From NCBI RefSeq assembly GCF_965363235.1, contig NC_134844.1, positions 19,574,646 to 19,638,645 on the forward strand: 64,000 bases of DNA, in the 5' to 3' direction. This document shows, one piece after another, positions 11,586-56,000 of the stretch. Positions within the stretch are counted from its first letter, which is position 1. Each line of letters begins with the position of its first letter. The notes under the pieces were generated by a model, which was given only the letters and a program-made list of their open reading frames with translations, was not told the origin of the DNA and did no database searches. The DNA is from Mytilus galloprovincialis. Its lineage: Eukaryota; Mollusca; Bivalvia; Mytilida; Mytilidae. A program made the translations under genes and the position numbers.

Positions 11586-12302
11586 TGCCGAACACGAAAC
11601 CAGATGTGTCGACGGCGTAAGCTTCTCTTGCTATACATGCATCACATGTAAACGAGTTAATTCACATAGGATCACATGGGACACAATCGGTGAATTTGCA
11701 GCTCCTACAACTATACTTCTATCCTAGATCAAGCACAACCCTGTTAATGAATATAAAAAAGAAGGTGTGCTTTGATTGTCAATGAGCTATAAACAGAAAA
11801 AAAAATAACAGATGGGCAAAGAAAGATCTCTTAAACTTTATTTTGACGACTTTTAAAAGCATTTCATTATAAAACAAAAAAAAATGATATATTTGATAGA
11901 TAAACCAAAGGATATACGGTATCCATGGAAATATAATCAGAACATGCACAACAACAAAAGAACTCAAACAAAAAGCAAAGCATTGTTATTGTGTTAACGT
12001 TTATCTCAAAGTCACAATTGAATGGAGCCTTCAAAACGGAGCAATATTTTAACTGTTTTTATACACACCTAAAGACCAATTCAATTTAGATATCATGTAA
12101 TACAATTAAATGGTGTCTATCAAATCATAACTTATAACCGATTTATATTTACTTTTTATCAAATTATGATTACTGAGATGAAATTCTGAAACAAAATGGT
12201 TCAATAAATACGGAGAAATTCTTTATTTTTTAAGGTAACAATATTACCATAAATAAGTTGAAATGCCCACTGACTAAATTCTATCTGGTTAATTCAGATA
12301 AT

Positions 12303-15300
12303 TAAGGTCTTTCCTTTTACTAAAGGGAAAGACCTTACTGTATTTCTTCTGTTTATTATTATTATTAAGGTCTTTCCTTTTACTAAAGGGAAAGACCTTA
12401 CTGTATTTCTTCTGATTATTATTATTATTATTATTATTCTTTTTGTTCCGCCAAACTTTGACGAAGTTAGCCTCCGTAACCGTAAGACGTGTCGCTTTCA
12501 TGTTCACACTTTGTATCGGTGTCATGAATACCTATCCGGAACTCACCCTGTGAGTCGAAATATTTTGTCGGTTGGGAGTAATCCCTCCGAAACCCAAAAA
12601 CCTTGTTATCGTTCCAACACCGTAACCGTAATAGGTAGAAAAAAAACAAAGGGTGAAATTTGTTCAGGACCAGACCCTGGTTCTTCGTTACATTTGGATC
12701 GAAAAGATTCAACGACTCATTGGTAGGGTTATGCCCCTATGAAAATTAACCGGTGTCGGTTGACCACCAAAACTCAGAAACCGTAAGTCGTAGACACCTA
12801 GGATCTTCACCAATCATCATCAATTTATGTATCTTTGAAAAATACCTCAAGGTCAAATTTGTATGTTGACCTTGACCTTTGACCTAACACCTTGTTATGG
12901 GATAATCTCAGAAACCATTATACTTACAGAAGTTTTAAATAGTGGAAAATGTTTGGGTCATTACGGCACAACTTTGTTATATTTTGACCGAAGAGATTTG
13001 ACCTTTTTTTAAGGGGCATAACACCTGTTTTAGGTTTCTGGAAAGACAAAATCATCTTTTACTATATAACCAAAGGTCCTAGACCCATGGGGTCTTCGGC
13101 AATGACATTGGGGACTAATGACCTTGACAAAGGTCAAAAGGTCAAAGGTCAAGGTCATGTCCCATATAGCGAATTTGGTGTTTTTAACCTTATTTAAAGG
13201 TTTTTCAGTGTGTTTTAAAGCTTTTCAATACATTCTACGTCTATTTGAACATGTATTTTACATTACAAAAGGAAAGACCTCTCAATTGTTCAAGAACAAT
13301 TGACAGTTTAATTAAGGTCTTTCCTTTTACTAAAGGGAAAGACCTTACTGTATTTCTTCTGTTTATTATTATTATTATTATTCTTTTTCCGCCAAACTTT
13401 GACAAATTTAGCCGCGTTAACCGTAAGACGTGTTGCTTTCATATTCACACTTTGTATCGGTGTCATGAATACCTATCCGGAACTCACCCTGTGAGTCGAA
13501 ATATTTTATCGGTTCGGAGTAATCCCTCCGAAACCCAAAAACCTTGTTATCGTTCCAACACCGTAACCGTAATAGGTAGAAAAAAAACAAAGGGTGAAAT
13601 TTGTTCAGGACCAGACCCCGGTTCTTCGTTACATTTGGATCGAAAAGATTCAACGACTCATTGGTAGGGTTATGCCCCTATGAAAATTAACCGGTGTCGG
13701 TTGGCCACCAAAACTCAGAAACCGTAAGTCGTAGACACCTAGGATCTTCACCAATCATCATCAATTCATGTATCTTTGAAAAAAACCTCAAGGTCAAATT
13801 TGTATTTTGACCTTGACTTTTGACCTAACACCTTGTTATGGGATAATCTCAGAAACCATTATACTTACAGAAGTTTTAAATAGTGGAAAATGTTTGGGTC
13901 ATTACGGCGCAACTTTGTTACATTTTGACCAAAGAGATTTGACCTTTTAATAAGGGGCATAACCCCTGTTTTAGGTTTCTGAAAAGACAAAATCAGCTTT
14001 TACTATATAACCAAAGGTCCTAGACCCATGGGGTCTTCAGCAATGACATTGGGGACTAATGACCTTGACAAAGGTCAAAAGGTCAAAGGTCAAGGTCATG
14101 TCCCAGATAGCGAATTTAGTGTTTTTAACCTCATATAATGGATTTTTAGTGTGTTTTCAAGCTTTGTACGGTTGACCTTGACCTTTTCAATACATTCTAC
14201 GTCTATTAGAACATGTATTTTACATTATAAAAGGAAAGACCTCTCAATTGTTCAAGAACAATTGACAGTTTAATTATTATTATTATTATTATTCTTCCGC
14301 CAAACTTTGACAAATTTATCCGCGTTAACCGTAAGACGTGTCGCTTTCATATTCACACTTTGTATCTGTGTCATGAATACCTATCCGGAACTCACCCTGT
14401 GAGTCGAAATATTTTGTCGGTTCGGAGTAATCCCTCCGAAACCCAAAAACCTTGTTATCGTTCCAACACCGTAACTGTAATAGGTAGAAAAAAAACGAAG
14501 GGTGAAATTTGTTCAGGACCAGACCCCGGTTCTTCGTTACATTTGGATCGAAAAGATTCAACGACTCATTGGTAGGGTTATGCCCCTCTGAAAATTAACC
14601 GGTGTCGGTTGGCCACCAAAACTCAGAAACCGTAAGTCGTAGACACCTAGGATCTTCACCATTCATCATCAATTCATGTATCTTTGAAAAATACCTCAAG
14701 GTCAAATTTGTATGTTGACCTTGACCTTTGACCTAACACCTTGTTATGGGATAATCTCAGAAACCATTATACTTACAGAAGTTTTAAATAGTGGAAAATG
14801 TTTGGGTCATTATGGCGCAACTTTGTTACATTTTGACCGAAGAGATTTGACCTTTCTGTAAGGGGCATAACCCCTGATTTAGGTTTCTGAAAAGACAAAA
14901 TCAGCTTTTACTATATAACCAAAGGTCCTAGACCCGTGGGGTCTTCACCAATGACATTGGGGACTAATGACCTTGACAAAGGTCACAAGGTCAAAGGTCA
15001 AGGTCATGTCCCAGATAGCGAATTATGTGTTTTTGACCTTATTTTAAGGATTTTTAGTGTGTTTTAAATGTTTTTAAGGTTGACCTTGACCTTTGACCTA
15101 TCAACTTTCTAGTCGATATCTCAAAAACGGTTAATCTTACAGAAATAGTAAACAGTGAAAAATGTTAAGGTGACTGAGGCACAACTTTTTTACATTTTGA
15201 CCGAAAGGATTTGACATATTCTTAAGGGGCATAACCGCCGTTAACGGTTTCTGAAAAGGTAAAATTAGCTTTAACTCTTGAACGAAAAGTCCTAGACCCA

Positions 15301-17590: not shown

Positions 17591-17639
17591 AGATTTTAAT
17601 TCCCAATTCTGTATTGACTGAGGATTTTAAACATTCTGT

Positions 17640-17969
17640 AAAACCAAAGGTATCTGAATGTTTACCTAGAGTAAAACCAAAGGTATCTGAATGTTAACCT
17701 AGAGTAAAACCAAAGGTATCTGAATGTTAACCTAGAGTAAAACCAAAGGTATCTGAATGTTAACCTAGAGTAAAACCAAAGGTATCTGAATGTTAACCTA
17801 GAGTAAAACCAAAGGTATCTGAATGTTAACCTAGAGTAAAACCAAAGGTATCTGAATGTTAACCTAGAGTAAAACCAAAGGTATCTGAATGTTAACCTAT
17901 AGTAAAACCAAAGGTATCTGAATGTTTACCTAGAGTAAAACCAAAGATATCTGAATGTTAACCTAGAGT
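17640..17969. repeat. Minisatellite, 10 x 33 bp
   Basis: Ten head-to-tail copies of a 33-bp unit (AAAACCAAAGGTATCTGAAT then GTTAACCTAGAGT) start at 17640 and every 33 bases after that. The copies are nearly identical. Most read GTTAACC, while the first and ninth read GTTTACC. Thirty-three bases is eleven codons, so the open frame from 17458 reads through the first copy but stops at the TAA in the second. Confidence 0.95.
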
Positions 17970-28500: not shown

Positions 28501-31500
28501 AGTGTTTTAATATCCTCATTTAGGAGGAGGGGTATGCTGTTTTACCCCAGGGTCACCTGTCCCTCCTTAAGATTTAAGTCATATATTTTATTCTCAAGGT
28601 TTTGTTTACACAGGTTTTGAAGTATATATTTACACAAATTTTAATACCTATTGAATTCAAATGAGAGCTTCCTGGATTTTGGCTTTATCTGACCATGCAT
28701 ATATGTGATGCTGTTTGATGCGTATTTCGATTCATCAACTTCTTGTTGACTTAATACCTATATTTTCTAACACATACAGTAATTACCTTTTAAAAAAGTT
28801 TGCTGGTGAACTACAAATTAGAAGGTCCTCAAAATTGCTGAAAGGCTTCACATGAACATGCTATACTGTTGCATTTTCAGATTCAAAGCTAATCAATTTA
28901 CTATTTTCAGAATACTTACATATTCTAACACAATAGCCATGTATTAAAATTTTTGTTGCATTTTACTTTGAAACTCAAAATAAAGGCTACTTTATTTTCC
29001 AGCTTCATGTGGAATCCATTATCATATTCATCACTTACACAAAAAATATGTTACAACTTTCTGTTTACAGACTAACATATTTTCCAAAACATACTGGCCA
29101 TAGATAAAATTATTTTTTCGTTTTTGAACTTCAAATAAGAGCCCCCTGAAATTTCTTAAGTTTCAAGCATGTGAATATGTAATTCCATTTGGTGCATTTT
29201 TCAAATCCTTTGCTATTCAACTTCCTGTTACCAAATAAGAGAACAGAGGTGTCATTTGTGGGCAATAGCTTCAGTTAGTTCTACCGTTACTTGTTTGTTA
29301 TCATCTAAACAGGAATAAGAACATCATATAGATAGATAGCTACACAATATACAAGTCAATGAATCAAACAAGATTGATAAACAAAAGTGTTCGTAACCAT
29401 AAACTGCATTAATATTACTTGAAACAAAACATTGTTTTTTGATGTACATATCATCATAGGTGAATTGTGTAAAAGTACAAATATTGATAAAATTGAGAAA
29501 GGAAATTTATCGGGAATGTGTCAAAGCGGCAACAACCCGACCATAGAGCAGACAACAGCAGAAGGCCACCAATGGGTCTTCAATGTAGCGAGAAACTCCC
29601 GCACCCGTAGGCGTCCTTCAGCTGGCCCCTTAAAAAATATGTATACTAGTACAGTGATAATGGACGTCATACTTAACTCCAAATTATACACCAGAAACTA
29701 AAATTTAAAATCATTCAAGACTAACAAAGGCCAGAGACACCTGACTTTGGACAGGCGCAAAATTGTGGCGGGGTTAAACATGTTTATGAGATCTCAACCC
29801 TCCCCCTATACCTCTAGCCAATGTAGAAAAGTAAACGCATAACAATACGCACATTAAAATTCAATTCAAGAAAAGTCTGAGTCCGATGTCAGAAGATGTA
29901 AACAATAGAAAATAAATAAAATGACAATAATACATACATAACAACAGACTACTAGCAGTTAACTGACATGCCAGCTCCAGACCTCAATTAAACTGATTGA
30001 AAGATTAGCTTTGTCTTCATCATATGAATATCAGACACAATCCTTCCCGTTCGGGGTTTAGTATCATACTATCATAAAACATACTATGAGAAGAACAACA
30101 TGCCAATGACTGTTTTTTAAATAAATGAGTTTAGTTCCAATGCAAAGACCCTATAAGTGAATCAATATTAAAGCCAAAATATGCAATCTTAAATGACCTG
30201 ACAACAATAGCATAACTATATCCCTTTTTAACAAGTCTGTTTAAAGGGTTTGTAAGCGTTTGAGGTGAATACTGACATTTATGTGCTTTGTAAAGGATAT
30301 TACCATAAAAGATTGGATGTGAAATACCTGAACATATAAGATGTCTGCATGTTGAGTTATATTTACGAATTATTTCCTTATACCGATAATAAAATTTAGA
30401 AAATGTTTTGACTAGTTTGTGGTATCAAAAACCCTGGTGTAATAATTTTTCAGTAATACATAAATTTCTCTCGCTAAAATCTAATACGTTGTTACATACA
30501 CGAGCGAATCGTACAAGTTGAGATATATAAACACCATAAGATGGTGACAAGGGAACGTCACCATCTAAAAATGGATAATTAACGATAGGAAATGAAAAAT
30601 CATCTCTTTTATCATAAATTTTTGTACTAAGCTTCCCTTTAATGATATAGATATCAAGATCGAGGAAAGGGCAGTGGTCATTGTTAGTATTAGCTTTATT
30701 TAAAGTAAGTTCAACAGGATAAATTTCTTTAGTATACATACTGAAGTCGTCATTATTGAGAGCCAATATATCATCCAAATATCTAAAAGTATTGTTAAAT
30801 TTTTGTATCAAATGTTGTTTTGATGGGTCTTTGCTAATTTTAGTCATAAATTGTAACTCATAACAATACAAAAACAGGTCCGCTTTAAGTGGTGCACAGT
30901 TAGTCCCCATCGGAATTCCAATAACTTGACGATATGCGGAATCTCCAAAACGTACAAAGATTTTATCAAGTAAAAATTCAAGCGCAAATATAGTATCAAA
31001 GCATGTCCAATTGACAATGTTCTTTTGTTTATTGCTAATAAAAAATTACCTAAAAGAGTTTGAACATGTACTCGCATTCTGACTTTTTAAATGCCCAGTT
31101 AATCAGGGATGTGAATTTTTTCTTAATAAGAAAATGAGGCAAAGTGGTATAAAGGGTAGAAAAATCAAAACTTTGAACAGATTTACGTCAAACAATATTG
31201 ATATTATTAGCAGCTTTATCAGCCGGGACAAAAACAAATTCCTAGGCTAGTTCTTTTAGTTGATGTTTGATATGCGAAATAGGGTTTTTATGGTTGTTGT
31301 GAAGAGTAAAATGTTCTTTAAAATGTTGTATTCAAATATCAACTATCTTCATTACTGAATTAAAAAAAAGAGTCCAAAGATTTTGGTCAGGTTTTTCCCG
31401 TTTTACCTATTTCAAACAGTAGGTACAGAGTGAGTCGTGGATGATATTACGACACTCATTCCAATTAATTATTGACAGGGGACCATATTTAAGTCCTTTA

Positions 31501-44000: not shown

Positions 44001-47000
44001 TCACAAAGCATTTAATTGATAGCACTGTATAATTTTTGAAAATGATAAAAAAAGATGAGTTTTCTGGGAATGTTGAAAAGTACCAAAACTACTAAACTAC
44101 CTGGGCATTTGTACACAAATTTAATGTTCACTCTTATAAAGATCTGATCAAGCTCTGTTCTACTTTTTGCTCTGGTTACTATTATATCAGCCAATGAAAT
44201 TGGGGCCTTTAAATGCTGATACAATGTACATGATAAGTATTTTAATCAGATTGGTCCTCTTTCAAATCATACAAAAAATTTAAAACGATATCCTTAATTA
44301 AAGTAAAATTAGAATGATAAGATTTGCTTTTGTTCAATCAGTTGCAAAGAAGTCTCGATAAATCAAAATCATAATTTAAAGGCTATTCATATTTCAGACC
44401 AAAAATCCAGTTTTTGTATTTTTTTCATATTACTAGTAAGTACCAATATGTAATGACCATCAATTAAGGTATGATTTTTATTTTGTAAATACTATTATTG
44501 CCTGTTATAAAAAAAAACTTATACATCTCTTCTTAGTCTGGAATCGTGATGCTATCTCAATAAATCTACAGAATATGATATTTAATTCAGAATTGAAATC
44601 ATTGATAATTTATAAAGATTCATTAAGATTTAATTCTTACAATCTTGTCTAGGCACTTATGCAAAGTTTGATAGCTGGGTAACTTTTATTTGTCAACTTT
44701 TGAATTCTTTTTGGATAAATGTGTTATTCATGATTAAACACATACAAAGGTTTTATTTTAAAGATAAGGTGTAAAGATTGACACCATTTCGTAATATAAA
44801 AGAACATACTTAGGATTTTTACGTAGATCATCAAGTTGTCCAACAACAGTAGATATGTTACTCTTTATCATTTTAAATGCTATCTCATGATCCTCCAATG
44901 TTACAAATCTGTAATATAAAATTTAGTTCTCATTAATCTATATGAACATCCTTCTTAAATGAAAATGTAACTGAATCACTTTATCAAATTTATCCAAGCT
45001 ACTTATGATTTTTTTTCAATTGTTCAGAGTAAATACAAATATCTTAATAGTTACCACTTTGTACATATATATTTCAAATGGATCAGATACAATTTCTTCA
45101 CTTACGAATTGTCATCCTCTGTAAAACGGTCCTCTTTATTACATTAAGGTAGCACAATACAAAGATTTTTCATCCCCAATCAGACATCTTTAAACTGATG
45201 TTATTCCACTCATATTTCTTATAATTTTATAAATGAGGTACCAAAAGAAAGAAGAAGGATTAATCTTTCAAATTGTGATAATTTCATTATGACATAATTA
45301 TTACATCATTAATTGTTATGTAATTAGTTGCCATATTGTGATGTCTATACTTGAATGAATTTAGCTTCTTTGTTATTCATAGCATCCCAAAATATTTTAT
45401 AGATTCTTGCACAACACAGTTTGACCTCCAAAACTGTGTCTCAGATTTTTCCTATTGTATTTCATTCTCTCATAAATCTTCAATGAAGTTTGCAACATCA
45501 ATTCATAAGAGACCACTAAATTCAATTGGGTATAAAATTTGTTCTATTAATGTTTTTGGAAATCTGAGACACAGTTTTGGAGGTCAAGCTGTGTTGTACA
45601 AGAATATATAAAATATTTTGGGATGCTATGAAGAACAAAGAAGCTAAATTCATTCAAGTGTGGACATCACAATATAGCAACTATTTACATAACAATTTAA
45701 TTATGTAATAATTATGTCATAATGAAATTATCACAATTTGAAAGATTAATCTTTCTTCTTTCTTTTGGTACCTCATTTATAAAATATAAAGAAGGATGAA
45801 ATGAATTACATCAGTTTAAAGTTGTCTGATTGGGAGTGACAAAATCTTTGTATTGTGCTACCTTAAGACATTTATTTATTTAGATAACCAACTGATATGT
45901 GTCTGTGCTACCTTAAGACATTTATTTATTTAGATAACCAACTGATATGTGTCCAGAATCATTTTTTCGGTATTATAAGAAACAGAGTTGTCGACATTTG
46001 CAAAGGATTGGTATTTTGTAATAGAAGTAATAGTGAGAACCAGCAGTTTTTCTTCAAGGACCACCAGATATTAAAAGATTTTGAGAACTCTGAAGAAATA
46101 AGATGTTATAATACATACTTATGTTTTTGTCTTGATTTGAACTTTGATTGGATTAATTCCACCATTTCATCACAGTTGAGGAATAAAGTTCTTGTAGCTT
46201 GTGGCTAAAATACAATTAAAAAGTACTTAAAATCATAGTCTATAACAAAGTACATGTCTATGATAAAGTACATTGTCTATGATAAAATACATTGTCTTTG
46301 ATAAAGAACATTGTCTTTAAAAAAGAACATTGTCTACGATAAAGTACATTGTCTATGATAAAGTACATTGTCTATGATAAAATACATTGTCTATGATAAA
46401 GTACATTGTCTATGATAAAGTACATTGTCTATGATAAAATACATTGTCTTTGATAAAGAACATTGTCTTTAAAAAAAAGAACATTGTCTATGATAAAGTA
46501 CATTGTCTATGATAAAGAACATTGTCTATGATAAAATACATTGTCTTTGATAAAGAACATTGCCATTAAAAAAGAACATTGTCTATGATAAATTATATAG
46601 TTTTTGATAGAGTACATTGTGTTTGATAAAAGTACATTGCCTATGATAAATATTAATAATAGTGCAAAGTTTATGCTCTTATTTTAGATAAAACATATTA
46701 CTCTAGAAAAAGATAGAAACGAAATAAAGAAAAACTAACCATATCTTTGTCATAATATGTTTCTACATCAGTAGGAGGTGGTCTTTCAATCTTTTTATCA
46801 TCTGGTAGGTATTCAGAACAATTCTTTAATATATTTTCTAATCCACTCAATGTCTGCAAGTAAAGCAAACGTTATTACACCATGTATATCAATAAAAAAT
46901 AAAATCTACTGGCAGGATATGTAAGGGTCTTAAAGAATTATTTAAGACCTCAGTAAAACATAGGTTAGTATTGGTCATTTTAAGAGAAATGAATTTATGT

Positions 47001-50000: not shown

Positions 50001-53000
50001 TCATTTGTCATATCATAGCAGCCTTGTTTTTGTATTAATTGATTAATTGTTGGTTTGTTTAGAGGTAGTTGGAATATTTCATGACAATCTAGGACAATGT
50101 GATATTACTTATAGACATTTATCATACAAATAACTACAACTAAAATCCTACCTTTTCAAATTTCCCAAATACATTTTTCTCTTCCCATGGGAAATGTCCT
50201 TCATCTGTATATTGTCTTCCTGATTTTAGCATGTCTTCTAACGTCTTGTACGAATAATCATTTTGCCTATAAACTGGTACCTTATCTTCCTGATTCATTT
50301 GAAGAATAGGAACCTCTACAAAGCTAAGTAATTTTCTGACAACTGGTTTAGTGAATGAGGTATCATTCTTTGGAGGGTACCTCAAATATTCCTGATATTT
50401 CAGCCACAGTGTCATCTGTTCAATCCTAAAACCTTTCTCTGTTATATCACCTATTAAAACACATAAGTCAAATTGTAGCAGGGTTTTCATTTTGTCTTGT
50501 GCAGTCAACCTGTACCTTTTTTCAATTGCACAACTTCAGTTCCAGTGTAACTATAGATTGAAAAATTTTGAAACTTTGCACTGGAATTAAAATTAACTTT
50601 AAAAGAAACAAACATGTTTTAATTCATTTAAACAATATGCTTCAGCTGAAATAGTGCTTTTCTCTATTGATGTAAAATATGTATGAGTCTATAATAGCTA
50701 TAAATCAACATATCTTATTAAGTTGATCATAGCTCTTATTGAATAATGCACAAACAAATATTAACCCTCATTTTTCTCTTTTACCAGAGCTTCATACTGT
50801 ATCTTGATGAATTCTGGTAGATCTATGTTTGTGAGGTTAACATGTTCTGGCAACGCCTTTTGATCTACTGGTTTGGGTTTTACTTGTCTGAAATAAAAAT
50901 TAAACAAACATACTTAATATAAACAATATATACACAATATATAGCAGCGATTCATAAATCCTTCTTGAAATAAATAAAGTTATTATGATATACCTACTTA
51001 CTTTTGTACGTAATGGTACCTTCTTTCACAACAAACTTTCTTTATACCCATTTGAACACAAGTACTTTCTACAAAAAGGCCACATACTTTAAATAGTCAA
51101 TAACTAGTTATCTGTATTATATACCTTGCACATTTTTGGCTTTATAAAATAACTCTGGAAAAATTTAGCTACTGATTTTGGTGTTTTTTTTTTCTTTTAC
51201 CTTAAAAAATACAATAGTTTAGGGGATATACTTTTATTTAAATATGCCTTTCTGCTGTCATGTTTAAAGACAGATGGTTAAAAAAAATGCTACTGTCCTG
51301 AATATGCGTGTAATAATTGCTAGAGAAAATTAGACAGTCCTCAATCAATCTATCACACATCATTCGTAGCTCAATTTATACTCTTTGCACTGCCTGTCCT
51401 AAATAATAAATAATAAACCATCACCTCATCAAGTCAATAAAACCTCAACATCAGCTGCTCCGAAATGGGATACAAAAGTATACTCCCCCACTCACAAAAC
51501 AACTTGCTAGTCCAATTACTGTAAATTTGGAAATTATTGCATGCATTTATTATTGCCATTGTTGGACGTTCTACACATTGATTGATTGTTGGTTGGTTGC
51601 ATCATGTCTAGTGGCAGATATTTCTACGTTCAACACAAATGCAAGTTTTTTTATTATTAAAATGTGATTTTTTACTATTGCAATACATATCTAGTTGCAA
51701 GTTTTGCTTTAGTAAAATCTTCCAACAATGTTCAGAATTTACTTTACCAATAACACTTACATAAGTTCCTCTGCTACTTCATACACCACTGGTAGTTCAA
51801 TCTCTTTCTCCACAGTTACATTTGCTGTTTTATTAACTTTATCTACAGTCTGTAACACTTCCAAGGTTTTATTTTCTTGTGTAGTATCTACCATCACAGT
51901 AAAATTATACTGGAATGAATAAGGTATAATCTACTTTAAATGCATGATAAACAATATTCTCTAATAAGGACTAACAGTTTGTTTTGTTGCACTGATAAAT
52001 CATAATTGTTAATGCATGATATAAATTAATGTTTACCAATAATGAGTTACAATTTGTTCTTATGTTGAGCTGCTACACCATTATCCCAAGTTAAAGGGGA
52101 GTTTGAGTGCTCAAAAACATGTTTGAAACCACTACTTTCTTTATGTGTCTGTTTCAAGTCAGAAGCCTGTAATGCAGTGGTAGCCATTTAATGCTGTTTG
52201 CAAAATTTGTTTTTTATTTATTGGTTTGTAATAAATCAAGCTGCTGGTTGTTTCTCATTTGATTTTGTTTTCACATTTTGTCATGTCAGGGTCTTTTACA
52301 GCTGACTAAAGGGTATTCAGTTTCCTCATTGTTAAAAACCTATAGTTTCTTAAATCAAAGTCTTAAGGTCTATTGTTGATAGTTGTCCCACTGGCAGTCC
52401 TATCATATTTCCGTATTCTTTATATAATGTAAGTTCTTTTGGCGACCAGATGGTTCAGTAAGAAAGCTTCTTAGAACTATTCCCTTCAGGACTGTAACTG
52501 TTTGTAATCTGGAAGCTGAGACTGTCTAATATCATTTAAAAGGATGAAAGTTGATCAATTCTATTTCAAATATACATGTACTTAATTTACCTGGAATTTC
52601 TGTGTAACATTTGCATAATGTCCTTTTAGATGAATGTGGAGTTTGGTGGCATTGTGACCTTTATTGAACACCATGGTGATGACCTTGAACTTGTTAGCTA
52701 CAGCTATTGCCTTGACAACAGATGACTTCTCATATTCTGCTGATTCTACACTTCCTTTGTCTGTCATCAGGGTTGTCATGTTAAAGTACACAATTACCTC
52801 ACCTAAAATCAATAATATTGGTTACAAACTAAATTCATATGCATAATTCAACTGAGGCATCAAGTTTTAAATCATTGTAAAAATCTAAAAAATTTTAGGA
52901 AAATGATGCAAAATTATGGTAAAAGTTCTCATACTGTAAATTTTGGAAATAGTTGTGTTCATGTATATTTGCAATTGTTGAACAATGGGTGAAAAGTGCA

Positions 53001-56000
53001 AGACTGTGACCTATAATTGTTAATTTCTGTGTCATTTTGGTCTCTTGTGGAGAGTTGTCTCATTGGCAATCATACCACATCTTCTTTTTTATAAGATCAA
53101 CTTTTTACAATTTCAGGAATGCTGATTACAATGTTACAAAATTTTATTAATAAAGTGTTGCAAAACCTTTCTCGTTGTAATTTCAGAATATAAAAACCTC
53201 AAAGAAAATTTCAGAATTTATAGCATTTGATGCTTATATATGAAGTAAACGTCCCCCTTAATCTACCATCAGAAAAATTTATAAAAGTGAAGACCATTAT
53301 ATGACGAACAAGCATTTTTAACAATGACTTGTATGGCTCTCCATGCAAGCTAACCTAATCAAATCTTATCCAAATTAAGAAGAATAACCAACCCATACAT
53401 AAAAGAATTACAATGTACTACATGTCACATAAGTTGTAAATTGATTTTAAAGTATACCCTACCTTTTGGTACTATAATTGACATACCTGCCAACTTTCAC
53501 GATTTAGGCGTGTATTACACGATTTTGACCCTTTGTCACGATTGCACGATCGTGATCGTGAAAAACCCTCTAAAACACGATTTTGTGAAAATCTACACGA
53601 AAAATATGATGGTTCCCGATTTTGAACTGTGTCCAAGGAAGACATTCGTGTTCAGCCAATCAAATTCTATGTTTCTCATGATCAAATTAATCAGCCAATC
53701 AAAAACGTTTTCTCTCAAGATAATTCTAACATCCTAGATTTTGAACTTGTGTTGATTTCCTCTGTTTTTTAAAATCGTAAACATGGCAAATGGTTTTTCA
53801 CCTGCAAGGAGGTTCTTACACAGAATAAGAATAAAAGCATGGTTGATTGACAAACTTCAATGATGCAGTACTACCATAAAGATAATAAATAGTAGTTTAT
53901 TCACTAATTTATTGATATTTCACTTGCTGTAACAAATGATATGTAAATGTATTCAATTAAAATACCAAATCATTTAATGTACTATTCTTTATTTTTCACA
54001 TGGACAAAACAAAAAAACCCACATGAGGAATCCCTTAAATGAGGCACTTCCCTTAGTCAAGGGGTCATTTTACTTCTGTGAAAAATAAAAATGAAAAAAT
54101 GTAGATTTTTATTTAACTTAAAAATGGGAAATTCTGACATTATATTTAGAACTACTTTTCTAAATGTGGGGTCCAATTATTTTGAAAAATAAAGAAGATA
54201 TACATGATATATTAGGCCATGAACATATCATAATACTTGGACATGTGTTGACCATATTATACCAGATAGATCATAAGATGTATAATTCTTTGGGAAAAGT
54301 TACTTCTAATAATATGAATATCACTCAGAAAATGTGTTCAGTTTTACTTAAAAAGTGGTTTTTAATGTCCTTACATTGAGGGGATACCCCTAGGTGTTGT
54401 TCTCAACCTGATAAAGGTCTTTCTTTGTGCATAATTTTAAATTGGAAAAGTCAACAATTATTTAATATCCTTACACATGAAATTAATTCCTGGTCTTGCA
54501 GCTAAATGTTCATCTTTTCTACTGATATATAATAACTAGAATCATGCAAATAAACTTTAGAAAAAGGCATGTAAGCTATCTTACAAATATGACACTTTTT
54601 CTAGACCACAAAACAGCACATGCAAAATAGTCGTCGCAAAGAATTGTAACCTTTGAAATAAATTGTTGTCGCGCACTAAAACCCCCATGGGCACTTTCAA
54701 AACTTGGCAGGTATGAATTGATTTTATTAAAAGTATACCCTACCTGTTGGTACTATAATTGATTTTATTAAAAGTATACCCTACCTTTTGGTACTATAAT
54801 TGAATTTTTAAAGTGAATCCTACCTTTTGGTACTATAATTGATTTTATTAAAAGTATACCCTACCTGTTGGTACTATAATTGATTTTATTAAAAGTATAC
54901 CCTACCTGTTGGTACTATAATTGATTTTATTAAAAGTATACCCTACCTGTTGGTACTATAATTGATTTTATTAAAAGTATACCCTACCTTTTGGTACTAT
55001 AATTGATTTTATTAAAAGTATACCCTACCTGTTGGTACTATAATTGAATTTTTAAAGTGAATCCTACCTTTTGGTACTATAATTGATTTTATTAAAAGTA
55101 TACCCTACCTGTTGGTACTATAATTGATTTTATTAAAAGTATACCCTACCTGTTGGTACTATAATTGATTTTATTAAAAGTATACCCTACCTTTTGGTAC
55201 TATAATTGAATTTTTAAAGTGAATCCTACCTTTTGGTACTATAATTGATTTTATTAAAAGTATACCCTACCTGTTGGTACTATAATTGATTTTATTAAAA
55301 GTATACCCTACCTGTTGGTACTATAATTGATTTTATTAAAAGTATACCCTACCTGTTGGTACTATAATTGATTTTATTAAAAGTATACCCTACCTGTTGG
55401 TACTATAATTGATTTTATTAAAAGTATACCCTACCTGTTGGTACTATAATTGATTTTATTAAAAGTATACCCTACCTTTTGGTACTATAATTGAATTTTT
55501 AAAGTGAATCCTACCTTTTGGTACTATAATTGATTTTATTAAAAGTATACCCTACCTTTTGGTACTATAATTGATTTTATTAAAAGTATACCCTACCTGT
55601 TGGTACTATAATTGATTTTATTAAAAGTATACCCTACCTATTGGTACTATAATTGATTTTATTAAAAGTATACCCTACCTTTTGGTACTATAATTGAATT
55701 TTTAAAGCGAATCCTACCTTTTGGTACTATATACTCTGTAACACTTGTTTCCAGTTTATAGCCTATAAGTTGATCATATTTAGATGTACCACAATCTCCA
55801 ACATCAAAACCACACGGCTTTACATTACATGTCTGAAAAATCAAAAACTTTTTTTTAAATAATGATCATAATTTACCTATCCAATGTTGACAAATTAAGT
55901 TAGAGATAACAAATAAAGACACCCGCATAGGAGCTGGAATGGGCAAAAATGCTCACACCTTACAAATAATAACTGGACATATGTTAAACTGGACCCCTGT

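Follow-up and report, generated by a model that had tools for sequence, protein, structure and literature searches.

The GNPTAB locus and its intronic array

The window, that is, the whole stretch of 64,000 nucleotides of Mytilus galloprovincialis DNA analysed here, carries on its minus strand two GNPTAB exons separated by an intron that opens with a tandem array of 5' splice site (donor) units. The features of this region are listed below in window coordinates, a slash marking an exon boundary and "decoy" denoting any copy of the donor other than the true one.

55718-55832, minus strand: GNPTAB exon of 115 nt, with acceptor TTTTTCAG directly upstream; it ends with TEYIVPKG and its last 14 nt seed the array
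55712-55720, minus strand: inferred true 5' splice site AAG/GTAGGA, last exon base 55718; joining here gives a gap-free alignment with solved GNPTAB
54716-55731, minus strand: contiguous array of 25 head-to-tail units (five of 39 bp and 20 of 41 bp), each with AG/GTAGG; its first 14 nt are exonic
55672-55680, minus strand: decoy donor 1, AAG/GTAGGG, which if used would lengthen the exon by 39 nt (13 codons)
55662-55664, minus strand: in-frame TAA in the next unit, reached on read-through past decoy 1
53482-54715, no strand assigned: 1.23-kb (1,234 bp) terminal-inverted-repeat element between units 25 and 26 (counting from 1), with the 6-bp target duplication AATTGA
53440-53476, minus strand: 26th and terminal unit (37 bp) beyond the mobile element, with decoy donor AAG/GTAGGG
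52591-52802, minus strand: next GNPTAB exon, ending with TQKFQ, which joins in frame

An initial annotation of this DNA had described a tandem array of about 25 units amplified from an exon end together with its 5' splice site, and the 25 contiguous units found on the minus strand between 54716 and 55731 confirm it. TRF called the array with a period of 41, 25.0 copies and 93% matches, and additionally reported periods of 203 and 244 bp, which would fit blocks of five or six units having been re-amplified. The units fall into an A type of 39 bp (indices 0, 5, 12, 16 and 22, counting from 0) and a B type of 41 bp (the other 20), in the order A BBBB A BBBBBB A BBB A BBBBB A BB from the exon side. 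Unit 0 is made of the last 14 exon nucleotides (55731-55718) and the first 25 of the intron, after which the array is wholly intronic; a single base in 39 sets unit 0 apart from each of the remaining four A units. Only five sequence types (13, 6, 4, 1 and 1 copies) occur among the 25 units, which fits recent, repeated amplification. Every one of them contains TATAGTACCAANAG/GTAGG with A or G as the next base; the unit pattern of the annotation, written with M (A/C), fits 24 of the 25, the other having T. There are 25 decoys in total, since the 24 or so that had been annotated next to the true donor are joined by one beyond the mobile element, which was overlooked, as were the split by this element, the two unit types and the recurrence of such arrays at other exon ends. 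The AG/GTAGG motif is intact in all 26 units, with no decay among the decoys.

The element interrupting the array is bounded by 16-bp terminal inverted repeats (94% complementarity) and belongs to a family with at least 47 other genomic matches (among 1,897 candidates, 40 scored), at least 31 of which cover at least about 1,070 of the 1,234 bases at 90-97% identity. Compared with 22 other copies, the one found here has 6 private substitutions per 1,209 columns. As the series of units resumes behind the element and private substitutions are few, the array had reached its present far end before this fairly young element inserted. The intron past the 26th unit is unrelated to the array. No evident transposase was seen in the element family.

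Elsewhere in the window lie two further minisatellites (33 bp x 10 at 17638-17969 and 19 bp x 22 at 46234-46650), a roughly 1-kb repeated segment on the plus strand (12274-14575) with three open frames whose C-terminal parts (RKTCRFHIHTLYRCHEYLSG...DSTTHW) are nearly identical, and, on the minus strand (30425-31045), a 206-codon open frame that by eye resembles a piece of reverse transcriptase (GIPMGTNCAPL...FRYLDDIL).

Origin of the array

The exons on both sides of the array are intact and in frame. Once joined, they align with the solved alpha/beta subunit of GlcNAc-1-phosphotransferase (7s05_B, E 7e-17), without gaps across the junction, where YIVPKG/EVIVYF in the mussel corresponds to YIIPKG/ECLPYF, indicating that the exon end is old coding sequence from which the array was derived. 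The 19-base core of the unit, TATAGTACCAANAGGTAGG, was searched in the whole genome (a single assembly of 1.385 Gb, with 98.8% carried by 14 large contigs) and gave 26 matches, every one at the GNPTAB locus; the reversed pattern gave 0, which excludes chance. A DNA search of the genome further showed that the array-bearing exon is single-copy. A core private to the locus, together with a single-copy exon, points to the exon as the source of the array. The proposal of the initial annotation that the exon-intron junction itself gave rise to the satellite is thus supported, at the level of sequence, by the conserved exon end, the private core and the overlap of unit 0 with the exon. As read from the units, the history was a tandem duplication of 14 exon nucleotides and about 25 intron nucleotides, then divergence into A and B types, re-amplification in blocks starting with an A unit, and later the insertion of the element.

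The array was seen in one assembly only, and one may ask whether it was produced by misassembly, or whether an unrelated intronic satellite resembles the exon end by chance. We give this almost no credence: the unit core is private to the locus, the exon end is conserved in GNPTAB, the array is interrupted by an element with a target duplication behind which the series continues, and comparable arrays exist at other exons. An introner or dispersed repeat was likewise ruled out, with 26 of the 26 matches to the 19-base core at the GNPTAB locus. A later exon of the same gene (50140-50170 of the window) ends with AAAAG/GTAGGATT and has the same donor 9-mer as the source exon of the array, without an array.

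Donor arrays at other exon ends

The genome was searched with a pattern of three MAGGTRAGT words spaced 29-59 bp, the reversed pattern being the control. It gave 558 overlapping matches versus 185 for the control; on contig C1, counted by hand over 132.58 of its 133.12 Mb, these represent at least nine distinct arrays versus two for the control. Triples of the word CAGGTAAGT form at least 25 distinct arrays (counted by hand at 100 of 108 places). We inspected the upstream flanks of 32 arrays, nine on C1 and 23 others with CAGGTAAGT, all having a consensus donor in every unit. By eye, 18 of the 32 start flush at an open frame resembling an exon end, nine do not lie at exon ends (L076, L081, L090, L092, L095, L096, L099, L101 and L103, the last left out of the exon-end count with its 64-codon open frame), two are ambiguous (L080 and L082) and three were left without assignment (L094, unclear; L083 and L107, whose flank is still array). 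Homology supports ten of the 18 exon-end arrays, mostly reaching the donor, and the other eight are recognised by their open frame alone.

C1 and C2-C12: 18 exon-end arrays, L072-L074, L079, L089, L091, L093, L097, L098, L100, L102, L104-L106 and L108-L111
L079: mucolipin/TRPML (PDB, 4e-11)
L089: UBR4 (Pfam, 9e-10)
L093: TSP_1 (Pfam, 5e-13)
L098: CAMKK2 (PDB, 4e-7)
L102: SID-1, in a SID-1-like gene (Pfam, 5e-10)
L104: ion channel (Pfam, 3e-6), TRP-gamma/TRPC (PDB, 1e-17)
L106: SNF2 (Pfam, 7e-6), Mot1-type helicase-like protein (PDB, 4e-18), a helicase of Mot1/BTAF1 type
L108, G000:C9:94372230-94372830: SMG1 (PDB, 1e-12)
L110: Ig (1e-5), under the Pfam cut-off
L111: PAN (6.5e-4), under the Pfam cut-off

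No Pfam match was found for L091, L100, L105, L109, L072 and L074, none above the cut-off for L097 and L073, and no PDB match for L074 and L097. The array in SMG1, the gene for the NMD kinase, has a 57-bp unit, and its first extension is in frame and stop-free. The ambiguous L082 (G000:C1:118398480-118399500) is a 36-bp, stop-free, serine-rich repeat of coding type with a donor-like CAG/GTAAGT or CAG/GTATGT in nearly every unit; its copy number in the protein could depend on splicing.

To assess an excess of donor arrays, the words CAGGTAAGT and AAGGTAAGT were compared with their reverses, a thin control given that it consists of a single reversed word per donor word. The genome contains 10,610 CAGGTAAGT versus 10,824 reversed words, and 14,800 AAGGTAAGT versus 32,597, these counts being inflated by long-period tandem families. 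Distinct arrays counted by hand on C1-C7 numbered 16 for CAGGTAAGT and 17 for AAGGTAAGT, with 5 for the reverse of each, which gives, per word, a 3.3-fold (p 0.016) and a 7.5-fold (p 1e-5) ratio, or 5.6-fold together (33 distinct arrays per 25,410 donor words versus 10 per 43,421 reversed words). For CAGGTAAGT the excess appears only in distinct arrays, a hand count in which the third word of some triples was incomplete, whereas the raw overlapping triples are balanced (108 versus 103). Among the 16 CAGGTAAGT arrays on C1-C7, the 6 judged to lie outside exon ends are close to the control's 5, so that exon-end arrays supply much of the excess. An acceptor-like triple, TTTTNCAGG, gave 505 raw matches versus 254 when reversed, with six distinct arrays on C1, and this comparison speaks partly against donor-specificity; at least one of its arrays (C1:13352504) reads TTTTACAG/GTAAAT and may be a donor itself.

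A rough Markov estimate, calibrated against the reversed word, places the share of real donors among lone CAGGTAAGT words at 20-33%. The probability of finding 14 exon-end arrays among 23 is 4e-4 at a base rate of 0.26, 0.006 at 0.33, 0.03 at 0.40 and 0.2 at 0.5; for the nine homology-backed arrays of the 23 it is 0.05 at 0.22 and 0.12 at 0.26, ranging from 0.05 to 0.34 over base rates of 0.22-0.33. The exon-end excess drawn from this test is suggestive at best. On a broader reading, minisatellites in this genome would preferentially arise or survive at real 5' splice sites, segments made of an exon end and its donor having been amplified at dozens of genes, perhaps through a process linked to transcription or splicing, with a spliceosome that reliably ignores long strings of downstream donors of equal or greater strength. 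We find this conceivable and lean against it.

Consequences of decoy use

The initial annotation expected the first decoy to bring an early in-frame stop. Translation contradicts this: the extension from decoy 1 is in frame and free of stops and leaves the next exon in frame, and only decoys 2-25, all of which meet the TAA at 55664-55662, are truncating. The U1 genes of this genome begin with AUACUUACCUG (taken from the reverse complement), and the predicted U1 pairing, a calculation that ignores pseudouridines and proteins, is -9.2 kcal/mol for the true donor; the 25 decoys range from -9.2 to -11.2, four equalling the true donor and 21 being stronger. With a human donor matrix, 20 decoys score higher than the true site, four equal and one lower. 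The true donor is thus not singled out by predicted U1 pairing alone, and the earlier suggestion that the decoys could compete for U1 holds in principle. The U1 snRNA genes themselves form tandem arrays with a spacing of about 1.3 kb (G000:C8:46088275-46125869 and C134; at least 42 matches).

Such competition might tune GNPTAB output, decoy 1 giving a 13-codon insertion, decoys 2-25 giving stop-containing mRNAs, and copy number acting as a rheostat. Predicted U1 pairing, at least as good in all 25 decoys as in the true site, is in its favour, and a human precedent is offered by the 31-bp VNTR of CBS, which the title of a cited study ties to reduced CBS activity (PMC2630376). Against it, the frame reached from decoys is not kept across the class: of 19 junction arrays, GNPTAB among them, 6 have a unit length divisible by three, the share expected by chance, and 13 do not (seven of the 19 periods come from repeat listings, their flanks being too short). 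There is accordingly no sign of repeats kept in frame for coding, routine coding use of decoys is not favoured by these unit lengths, and tuning by copy number seems to us rather unlikely.

We also considered whether the decoys of B units silence themselves. An A-to-G change at +6 turns GUAGGAU into GUAGGGU and would place an hnRNP A1 site, UAGGGU, over the unit's own U1 site. This motif is present in 20 of the 25 units but not at the true donor or in the remaining four A units; on the same strand, TAGGGT is found 20 times within the 1,002 bp of the array and 9 times in the 63 kb outside it. As far as the consulted parts of the literature go, UAGGGA/U is a SELEX or high-affinity hnRNP A1 site, and A1 bound close to a donor reduces U1 binding or exon use (PMC3794818, PMC1379639, PMC4932749). 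However, one substitution inherited by all B units is not 20 independent events, the UAGG core described from iCLIP is found in the true donor too, and the scheme is not general, other arrays having donors of GTAAGT type; we consider it very unlikely. An even more doubtful proposal is that AATAAA beside the U1 site of each B unit constitutes a potential premature 3'-end switch held off by U1. Of the 25 units, 20 contain AATAAA, whose density is 20.0 per kb within the array and 1.9 per kb beyond it, but the sequence is AT-rich and every copy was inherited from one event, and we regard this guarded polyadenylation as extremely improbable. Recursive (ratchet) splice sites were ruled out, as the TTTTAATAAAATCAATTATAGTACCAACAG that precedes AG/GT in B units is not pyrimidine-rich.

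A probable junction-seeded minisatellite

Taken together, these results lead us to favour, with some reserve, a minisatellite seeded by the exon-intron junction and largely tolerated by splicing. Most splicing would go to the donor lying furthest 5', decoys would seldom be used, and the array would be nearly neutral. The array would have grown through replication slippage or unequal exchange and would be transcribed within the intron. The authentic donor, made first and paired with the upstream 3' splice site, would win through exon definition or first-come commitment. Comparable arrays at other exon ends suggest that the splicing system tolerates strings of donors. Three observations weigh against this reading. 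First, each of the 25 decoys is predicted to pair with U1 at least as well as the true GNPTAB site does. Second, AG/GTAGG is retained in 26 of 26 units. Third, distinct donor arrays are commoner per word than reversed ones, which a purely random birth of arrays would not predict, except where real junctions or genic DNA have some special property.

It has long been asked how a spliceosome settles on one of several equal 5' splice sites, and the usual approach has been to study two or three artificial copies. Natural strings of donors, spread across many genes, unit lengths and frames, provide a test of splice-site choice. Invariable use of the first donor would speak strongly for exon definition or first-come commitment, whereas leaky decoys would make array length a heritable control on gene output. 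Arrays also seem to be in excess at real exon ends, and this would point to a link between gene expression and the birth of minisatellites.

Comparison with known systems

In the literature consulted, mostly titles and the beginnings of abstracts, we recognised no genome-wide description of donor arrays; within that scope, the junction-spanning type of repeat is already known, and it is its recurrence within one genome for which we found no description. The closest case is the human CBS 31-bp VNTR, c.1444_1467+7(16_21), which by its name comprises 24 exon and 7 intron nucleotides in 16-21 copies (PMC2630376). Each copy would thus repeat the exon end with its donor; the GNPTAB unit likewise spans the exon end and the 5' splice site, unit 0 being the copy that overlaps the exon. 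The mussel array differs in gene and phylum, in its composition (14 exon and 25-27 intron nucleotides, two unit types, 26 copies) and in having one unit cut off by a mobile element. Human genes within segmental duplications carry internal tandem repeats at their exon-intron boundaries, which can alter splicing (De Grassi and Ciccarelli 2009, PMC2812944); those lie in recent paralogues and are transcript-supported, whereas the mussel arrays lie in single genes, hold many donors each and are known from DNA alone. Finally, in intron gain of the Rogers type, as outlined in the accessible text, an AGGT-bearing exon segment is duplicated in tandem (PMC4974935). The GNPTAB array resembles it in that the tandemly duplicated segment carries AG/GT; in the mussel, however, the segment already spans the donor and lengthens an intron, and no new intron is inferred.
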